From Bradyrhizobium ontarionense (GTDB lineage: Bacteria > Pseudomonadota > Alphaproteobacteria > Rhizobiales > Xanthobacteraceae): a DNA stretch of 64,000 bases. Below are positions 49,643 to 52,022 of this stretch, one piece after another. The DNA lies in the NCBI RefSeq assembly GCF_021088345.1, contig NZ_CP088156.1, positions 5,456,001-5,520,000 on the forward strand, read 5' to 3'. Position 1 is the first letter of the stretch. Each line of letters starts with the position of its first letter. The notes beneath the pieces are model-generated. The model searched no databases, was not told where the DNA came from, and was given only the letters and a program-made list of their open reading frames with translations. The translations under genes and the position numbers were made by a program.

Positions 49643-49689
49643 CGAGGCCTCGCTTTTCGCTTCGGCCCGGATGTCGCTCCAAAAATGGT

Positions 49690-49842
49690 GTCGTCCCTGC
49701 GAACGCAGGGACCCATAACCACGGGCAGATGTGTTTTGCCCGACAAGTCCAACGTAAAGCCTGCCTCATGACAGATCACGCGGTATGGGTCCCGGGTCTG
49801 CGCCCGCTGACGCGTCGCGTCATCGGGCTTGCCCGGGACGAC
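49690..49842. repeat. Gene-less family G repeat (GTCGTCCC...GGGACGAC), copy 1
   Basis: The left hairpin GTCCCTGCGAACGCAGGGAC and CCATAACCAC are the same as in the GIY-YIG unit 49912-50331. The right end reads ATCACGCGGTATGGGTCCC and closes GGGACGAC. The middle is about 50 bases without a gene. The gap 49643-49967 holds this repeat and the left end of the next unit. Confidence 0.8.
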
Positions 49843-49911
49843 AGCTTTGCTCTCCTCGCCAGCTCCACCCTCTGGTGTCGTCGGTCAAGCCCGCTAAGCT
49901 GCCTAACAAAT

Positions 49912-50331
49912 GGTGTCGTCCCTGCGAACGCAGGGACCCATAACCACAGGGAGGGGTTTGAGGCACGCTAGGAGATCAGGTCACTGAGATCGCGCCATTC
50001 GAGATTATCGCGCTCGATCAGCTCGATTTTCCAGTCGCGTTTCCAGCGCTTCAGCTGTTTCTCGCGGATGATCGCCTCTTCCGCGACACCATATGTTTCG
50101 ACATAGACCAGCCGAAAGACGCCGTATTTCTTCACGAAGAGCGAGCCTTCGCCATCGCGATGCTGCTGAAGCCGCTTCTGAATCGAGTTCGTGACGCCGA
50201 TATACAATGTGCCGTGACGACCGCTCGCCAGAATATAGACGTAGTACATAGCCGTACCATCACGCGGATGGATCGTCGAAAAACAACTGAAGCCGGTGGC
50301 TATGGGTCCCTGCGTTCGCAGGGACGACACC
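49912..50331. mobile_element. Putative GIY-YIG element: nuclease gene between 39-bp inverted repeats
   Basis: Positions 49912-49950 and 50293-50331 are inverted repeats of 39 bases with two mismatches. Each holds the hairpin GTCCCTGCG-AA/TT-CGCAGGGAC. The nuclease stop codon lies 17 bases from the left repeat and its start codon 43 bases from the right one, so the unit is little more than gene plus ends. Gene-less relatives are at 49690-49842, 58791-58909 and 63248-63398. No clear target duplication is seen. Mobility is inference. Confidence 0.6.
49968..50249 (-). CDS. GIY-YIG nuclease family protein
   Basis: A protein of 93 residues. The start MYYVYILASGRHGTLYIGVTNSIQKRLQQHRDG holds the two-strand GIY-YIG core (as VYI...LYIG), Arg of the next helix and a conserved His. 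KKYGVFRLVYVETYGVAEEAIIREKQLKRWKRDWKIELIE holds the metal-binding Glu and the REKQLKxWxR segment of the small UPF0213/COG2827 group. The domain is complete. The ATG at 50249 begins the domain; the frame upstream is repeat DNA. The gene is enclosed by inverted repeats, which makes it a candidate for the enzyme that moves or maintains them. Confidence 0.9.
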   Translation of the reverse strand: MYYVYILASGRHGTLYIGVTNSIQKRLQQHRDGEGSLFVKKYGVFRLVYVETYGVAEEAIIREKQLKRWKRDWKIELIERDNLEWRDLSDLIS

Positions 50332-50486
50332 GTCTTTGTGGCGCGAGCTTACCACAAACCGCAGAAGGGCTGCACCGTCCCTGACGTCTACTGCAATCCT
50401 GACATGCGGCTGAACCGCGGCCTGTGCTGTTGACCCGGCGCGCCGCGCTGGTCACGGTGCCGGCCCCACTGTCGCGCAGTACCCCC

Positions 50487-51839: not shown

Positions 51840-51886
51840 GTCGTCACTCAGGGGAACGTCGCAGTTCAGGTCGATATATCTCAACC

Positions 51887-51960
51887 GTCATTGCGAGCGC
51901 AGCGAAGCAATCCAGAATCTTTCCTCGGCACCCGGATTGCTTCGCTGCGCTCGCAATGAC
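51887..51960. repeat. Intergenic palindromic repeat, family A, copy 3
   Basis: It begins GTCATTGCGAGCGCAGCGAA and ends TTCGCTGCGCTCGCAATGAC, an exact inverted pair of at least 20 bases. It lies between two minus-strand genes. Confidence 0.82.
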
Positions 51961-52022
51961 GGAGCCAACTGCAAAATTCCGAATGCGCCGCCGATGCTGC
52001 CCGGACTGACGAGCCCCGCGCC

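Follow-up and report, generated by a model that had tools for sequence, protein, structure and literature searches.

In RAYT systems, the gene of the enzyme is bracketed by its own REPs, several enzyme–repeat pairs occur in one genome, and the repeats are arranged as inverted dimers. The RAYT enzyme is an HUH/Y1 tyrosine transposase, and its repeats carry a GTAG tag. As a kind of system, nuclease genes accompanied by dispersed palindromes of their own are known from RAYTs. The locus described here resembles them in that dispersed palindromic repeats belonging to the nuclease gene enclose it, pair-specifically with exceptions, that several enzyme–repeat pairs share a genome, and that the repeats form inverted dimers. 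Unlike RAYT, the enzyme is a GIY-YIG nuclease and the repeats are CGTC/TGTC-tagged, so that both components, enzyme class and repeat superfamily, differ.

According to the main text of Di Nocera et al. (2013, PMC3733652), CGTC-tagged REPs are known from five phyla, with alphaproteobacteria predominating, and dRS3 of Neisseria and RPE-4/6 of Rickettsia belong to them. The repeats are described there as a CGTC/TGTC tag, a stem of 8–9 bp, a loop of 4–5 bases and a CCA tail; the stems start with AT almost invariably, and the dispersed copies are mostly head-to-head dimers. In that text the repeats show no association with transposase genes beyond a few regarded as fortuitous, and they "apparently lack a dedicated transposase"; an E. 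coli RAYT is reported to cleave single-stranded REP DNA at the tag (PMC3733652). GIY-YIG has 0 mentions in the main text of the paper. Among the papers listed by our literature search, none joined GIY-YIG genes with REP repeats in its title or the beginning of its abstract; subscription papers and preprints lay outside its scope, and a prior report is possible. A preliminary description of the locus knew of no described element of this kind. In the literature searched this holds for the link between GIY-YIG and REP, and it fails for the repeats, which fit the described CGTC-tagged REPs.

The window is a stretch of 64,000 nucleotides of the Bradyrhizobium ontarionense genome, and the features of the locus are listed in Table 1. 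The inverted hairpin arms and the gene between them, as claimed in the preliminary description, were confirmed. Positions 49912–49950 are identical to the reverse complement of 50293–50331 at 37 of 39 bases, the perfect hairpin GTCCCTGCG-NN-CGCAGGGAC is present in both arms, and the complete gene of 93 residues lies between them (PF01541, E = 3.6e-16, with the Pfam scan made of that frame only, among overlapping ORFs). The first possible start codon gives a frame of 120 aa, which overlaps the right-hand repeat. The tags of R2 and R3 face outward from the gene. The third copy R1 has a divergent inverted partner, so that the site combines a REPIN-like dimer with the inverted pair that encloses the gene. 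As single-stranded DNA, the window hairpins fold better than most shuffles (z −2.2 to −3.4), and the segment 49684–49850, which holds the REPIN-like dimer, folds at −41.7 kcal/mol (z −3.4 versus shuffles). The palindrome 9-mer has 6 matches in the window on both strands versus 1.31 expected, and at least 6 were found in 0 of 100 shuffles. The neighbours of the site are presumably a ubiG-like methyltransferase gene and an EamA-like transporter gene, as named from their sequences. Elsewhere in the window, at about 51880–52010, frames overlapping on both strands encode HCERSEAIQ / LRCARNDG-like peptides; this region resembles another dispersed palindromic repeat family.

Table 1. Features of the GIY-YIG locus in the window
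Feature	Position	Strand	Basis or remark
Gene for the 93-aa GIY-YIG nuclease (clade A; protein group 2 in Bradyrhizobium)	49968..50249	−	Pfam, tree (locus L004), group assignment
REP hairpin R2, TGTC-tagged, tail CCCATAACCAC, 3' of gene	49909..49950	+	sequence; ssDNA fold −10 kcal/mol, z −3.2
REP hairpin R3, inverted versus R2, 5' of gene	50293..50331	−	37/39 match to R2; fold z −2.2
REP hairpin R1, third repeat copy	49684..49727	+	96% identity to R2 over 46 nt; fold z −2.4
REPIN-like dimer: R1 plus divergent inverted arm (about 49780–49842), long loop	49690..49842		by-eye reading
Intergenic site holding gene and repeats	49643..50484		empty, REPIN-only or gene-bearing in other Bradyrhizobium

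The protein scores 59.7 bits against PF01541 (curated cut-off 22.6), and GIY-YIG and T5orf172 are its only Pfam domains; the HUH Y1 tyrosine transposase domain was not among them. Across six relatives 28 columns are invariant, and Y16, R26, H30, E63 and N82 are among the invariant residues; we take the conserved Tyr, Arg, Glu and Asn to have the catalytic roles. The sequence matches the UPF0213 structure 1zg2 with E = 5.3e-10. The small UPF0213 GIY-YIG proteins (1zg2, 1ywl), which we take to be of the YhbQ/YazA type, have the same domain and size, and the window protein probably has the same fold. PDB matches to SLX1 were not significant (E 0.06 and above). A PADLOC search of the nuclease gave no defence-system match, and PHROG gave a single weak match, to a GIY-YIG homing endonuclease (E = 3.6e-4). 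On these results a defence or phage gene was rejected.

The hairpin is dispersed through the genome. Exact copies of the palindrome core number 15 in the genome of 8.44 Mb, including the 3 at the window locus, and a wider 25-base pattern has 69 matches (reversed control, 0). A BLAST search with the hairpin as the query gave 47 matches, including at least 7 opposite pairs about 80–100 bp apart, that is, head-to-head dimers. Private transposon ends were rejected as a reading, because the repeat is dispersed. The structure TGTC-GTCCCTGC-GAAC-GCAGGGAC-CCA gives the tag, stem, loop and tail in the order described for CGTC-tagged REPs, with the CGTC/TGTC tag, the 8–9 bp stem, the short loop, the CCA tail and the head-to-head dimers in common. 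According to this resemblance in sequence, the window repeat fits that class. Unlike the published CGTC REPs, for which no associated transposase gene was found, it accompanies a GIY-YIG gene, and its stem starts with GT, not with the usual AT; the repeats of several other groups described below start with AT.

The preliminary description proposed to ask how often homologues of the gene are flanked in the same way. Eighty close homologues were collected by similarity, of which 79 were measurable; these loci are not independent, because most of them are from Bradyrhizobium. Two flank tests were used, namely GTC-tagged hairpins within 250 bp on both sides, and a repeat common to the left and right flanks. 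GTC-tagged hairpins were found on both sides in 61 of the 79 loci, on one side in 10 and on neither side in 8, and a repeat common to both flanks was found in 75. At least one test was passed by 77 of the 79, and only L100 and L129 failed both. Among 522 control genes of the same loci, hairpins lay on both sides of 2 and on one side of 56, and 6 shared a flank repeat. With each of five control tags, hairpins lay on both sides in 0 of 79 loci. The flanking frequency is thus far above that of other genes, and also of other small GIY-YIG genes and UvrC as given below. The RAYT-like pairing of REP hairpins with another nuclease fold, as proposed in the preliminary description, hereby withstood the refutation that the description itself had named. 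The set spans contigs labelled Rickettsiales, Daviesbacteria, Microgenomates, Berkelbacteria, Zixiibacteriota, Ignavibacteriales and Chlorobi, and the repeat sequences differ among them. Genes bracketed by a dispersed repeat of their own are thus found in different species and in several phyla. In a second tree, to which 24 of the more distant loci were added, all 24 belong to clade A. By exact matches, one repeat from the distant loci is dispersed in 2 of 9 such genomes (15 and 24 copies) and has 0–6 copies in the other 7.

A PF01541 search was performed against 100 evenly drawn Pseudomonadota genomes including that of the window. The tree was made from the 93 small GIY-YIG proteins among the matches listed (<420 aa, not UvrC-like), 6 from the window's genome and 87 from the other 99; the UvrC-like L239 was dropped before the tree, and L181 was not measurable. 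The threshold for flank sharing was the 99th percentile of 524 control genes. All 31 flank-sharing genes in this sample of 93 fall into only two supported clades, 24 of 37 in clade A (support 99/98) and 7 of 10 in clade C (support 100/98). None of the 46 small GIY-YIG genes outside clades A and C and none of the 19 UvrC genes share a flank repeat. Unlike the genes of the two clades, the small GIY-YIG genes of the YhbQ/YazA type are among those without it. With the window's genome excluded, 21 of 33 genes in clade A and 6 of 9 in clade C share a flank repeat. These results show that within the sample the bracketing is confined to two clades of GIY-YIG genes. The remaining 13 of the 37 clade A genes fall short in the flank test, including one that was not measurable. 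When the genes were classed by motif, GTC hairpins lay on both sides in 11 of 33 class A genes and on at least one side in 22 of 33, versus 1 on both sides and 23 on one side among the 524 controls. The motif-based split misplaced three flanked genes, and the tree clades were used instead. The clade A copies L006, L270, L286, L312 and L329 contain stops or truncations, as expected of non-essential or mobile genes.

The repeat of clade C differs from that of clade A and is an imperfectly palindromic family of the CATCCTGAGG / CTTCGACAAGCTCAGGATG type. This type brackets the clade C loci L005, L166, L186, L173, L226, L156 and L176. A second enzyme–repeat pairing, of clade C with its own repeat family, may thus exist. 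Besides the window gene, the same genome has three genes of clade A and one of clade C; read by eye, all four are bracketed, and the repeat differs from gene to gene. In one of its loci, L002, the arms are too different for the sharing test, but GTC hairpins are present on both sides.

Nineteen of 35 named records were also analysed, with near-duplicates omitted (L135 was reached by another route). Seventeen of the 19 loci belong to clade A, and 14 of these 17 are positive in one or both flank tests (the exceptions are L137, L144 and L145); the two outside the clade, L152 and L153, pass neither test. The neighbours of L152, an example of the YhbQ/YazA type, are a tRNA methyltransferase gene and rsmI. 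The control set of these loci was small and noisy, with 3 flanked genes among 16. A. lipoferum, S. meliloti, N. aromaticivorans and Neisseria, which are named as carriers of CGTC REPs in the text of PMC3733652, each have a clade A gene passing a flank test. The S. meliloti gene has the strict hairpin on one side only, yet a repeat common to both flanks. In Azospirillum lipoferum (L136), the repeat-flanked GIY-YIG gene lies between the annotated sufB and sufC genes. In Shinella sp. PSBB067 (L151) such a gene apparently also lies between genes that we take to be sufB and sufC.

In order to describe the pairing, the copies in 41 Bradyrhizobium genomes were compared. Thirty-nine of the genomes match the clade A alignment, with 113 matches in total and 0 to 6 per genome, and the best 93 of the 113 were used, the lowest-scoring being omitted. 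These 93 copies form ten protein groups, and GTC hairpins lie on both sides of 70 of them. Most groups have characteristic stems: GTCGTCCCTGCG in group 2, to which the window gene belongs, GTCATCGTCCGC and GTCAT[GA]CCCCGC in group 5, GTCATTCCGGGG in groups 6 and 7, and GTCAT[TG]GCCGGG in groups 8–10. Sister groups share stems (6 with 7; 8, 9 and 10), and group 4 has GTC hairpins on both flanks in 0 of 6 copies. When group-by-site units were compared by the median, the repeat was shared in 15 of 15 pairs of the same group at different sites, and in 16 of 154 other pairs; 0 of 20,000 label shuffles reached the same-group sharing, and the Mantel rho was 0.63 (kinship ignored). Among single copies, 92.4% of 170 pairs of the same group from different genomes and sites share the repeat, versus 10.1% of 89 pairs of different groups within one genome. 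Same-group pairs within one genome share it in 3 of 5 cases and do not in 2 of 5. As the repeat is shared within a group across genomes, and little between groups in one genome, the repeat type follows the nuclease and not the host.

The number of repeats is also linked to the gene for one enzyme–repeat pair. The window-type repeat has a median of 42 copies in the 18 genomes with a group 2 gene versus 4 in the 23 without (p = 0.0043, with three flanking copies subtracted per gene, one group 2 gene having an internal stop, and kinship ignored). For group 5 the medians are 2 versus 1 (p = 0.072), which is a trend only, and mismatched enzyme–repeat pairs gave no copy-number link (p = 0.56 and 0.47). 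G117 (51 copies) and G101 (35) have window-type repeats without a group 2 gene and are plain exceptions; G103 (148) and G104 (31) have many such repeats and only partial gene copies. Of the 11 genomes with 5 or more pattern copies in the 100-genome sample, 7 have a clade A gene among the matches listed, versus 14 of the 89 others (p = 0.0014, kinship ignored and one stem class considered). Four pattern-rich genomes have no clade A gene among the matches listed, namely G037 (154), G053 (47), G085 (577) and G001 (8). In G037, G053 and G085, gene loss or gaps in draft assemblies are possible causes of the missing gene.

The 93 Bradyrhizobium copies sit at 17 sites, two of which carry genes of two groups. 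The gene is mostly inherited in place, and in this it is closer to a RAYT gene than to an element that hops. The mobile unit proposed in the preliminary description accordingly survives as a RAYT-like pairing of hairpin and nuclease, and not as an element with private ends. At the window's site, 26 of 30 loci were bounded, 11 with long spacers (637–1270 bp) and 15 with short ones. Nine of the long spacers contain a gene copy (one with an internal stop) and two contain partial copies. According to a by-eye reading of the short spacers, six are clear REPINs without the gene, four are relics, and five show none or traces. In L365 (G035) the site matching window positions 49643–50484 is empty and reads cggtgtcg directly followed by gtggcg, possibly a scar left at the tag when a REPIN was lost. 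The empty sites that the preliminary description suggested looking for were thus found, along with REPIN-only alleles; target duplications, which it named with them and which together with terminal inverted repeats would mark an insertion sequence, were not readable at the two sites compared, where the relatives have diverged. The REPIN-only state could also result from gene loss by recombination between direct repeats.

At site 7 (L282), a gene copy is present in 1 of 41 genomes, and the occupied allele is REPIN–gene–REPIN. Among 30 loci of this site, a by-eye reading showed one REPIN in each of seven short spacers, the REPINs being of several types, and no REPIN in an eighth, empty spacer of 17 bp; sixteen longer spacers lay outside the by-eye reading, and five loci were not bounded. 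The gene can therefore arrive where relatives hold a REPIN, which fits alike a nuclease that spreads REPINs and a nuclease that homes into them. Homing is the main rival explanation. GIY-YIG homing endonucleases are known in introns, where the gene is copied into the cut site by repair. Here another agent would spread the REPINs, the nuclease would cut its cognate REPIN, and repair would then copy the gene into the break with a gene-bearing copy as the template. The window nuclease shares with these enzymes the fold and the position of its gene at a presumed recognition sequence, and the allele series at site 7, the weak PHROG match and the repeat-rich genomes without a clade A gene among the matches listed are points in favour of homing. 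The presumed target differs in being a multicopy hairpin repeat, and no intron or intein was seen, nor any added domain in the 93 aa. A genome mostly carries a single copy of a given group (e.g. 20 copies in 18 genomes, 18 in 16), which is low given dozens of sites. Homing also gives no account of the rise of the cognate repeat number with the gene, nor of the spread of the CGTC repeats. We consider it unlikely, while keeping it ahead of the explanations that follow.

The gene may instead serve the host. GIY-YIG proteins include structure-specific nucleases such as SLX1, and a caretaker of this kind would remove or resolve local hairpins, the adjoining repeats being a regulatory or terminator device. 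Inheritance in place agrees with such a role, and the SLX1 structures in the PDB, as given above, are not significant matches. A caretaker does not predict that group-specific repeats stay with the gene at new sites, and the copies vary from 0 to 6 per genome, some of them truncated or with stops. This explanation appears improbable to us. We give still less weight to the gene being cargo between repeats moved by another enzyme, such as a RAYT or an IS transposase. The window's genome does contain two Y1_Tnp-like genes. One of them, the RAYT-like gene of L054 (G000:C1 near 2441293), has GTAG repeats on both sides (1259–1370 and 1952–2075); this is the arrangement known from REPtrons, and it offers a natural positive control from the same genome. 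One CGTC stem type was searched for in L054 and in the second RAYT-like locus, and was found in neither, so that a RAYT was rejected as the driver. The limitation of the bracketing to two GIY-YIG clades in the sample also speaks against a passenger, as does the text of PMC3733652, in which CGTC repeats accompany transposase genes in a few cases only, regarded as fortuitous. That repeats are so frequent as to flank any intergenic gene by chance has a negligible probability: some genomes do hold hundreds of repeats and 3 of 16 genes were flanked in the small named-record control, but the 522 and 524 control genes, the five control tags and the clades without flank-shared repeats contradict it.

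On balance, we lean towards the reading that the gene encodes a dedicated nuclease of one CGTC-tagged REP/REPIN family, a counterpart of the RAYT–REPIN system on the GIY-YIG fold; its cutting and its role in movement are inferred. The results as a whole suggest that small GIY-YIG enzymes of one branch are the missing partners that spread or maintain these hairpin repeats. In such a mechanism, the enzyme would recognise the hairpin or cruciform into which its own repeat folds and would nick at or near the GTC tag. The nick would then start the copying of the REPIN or its transfer to new sites. The gene itself would move seldom, and then with its repeats; in the one case read closely, this would have been to a site that holds a REPIN in relatives.

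A broader proposal, which we put forward tentatively and with slightly less than even confidence, is that two clades of tiny GIY-YIG enzymes drive the CGTC-tagged REP superfamily and a second palindromic family of the CATCCTGAGG type. They would form a widespread non-HUH class of repeat-spreading enzymes, with several enzyme–repeat pairs per genome. If this is true, the REP/REPIN way of life has at least two origins, on nucleases unrelated to each other, and a function can be given to a common gene that is annotated just as "GIY-YIG nuclease family protein". The CGTC-tagged REPs, for which no enzyme was named in 2013, now have a candidate enzyme, and each enzyme group has a cognate repeat.
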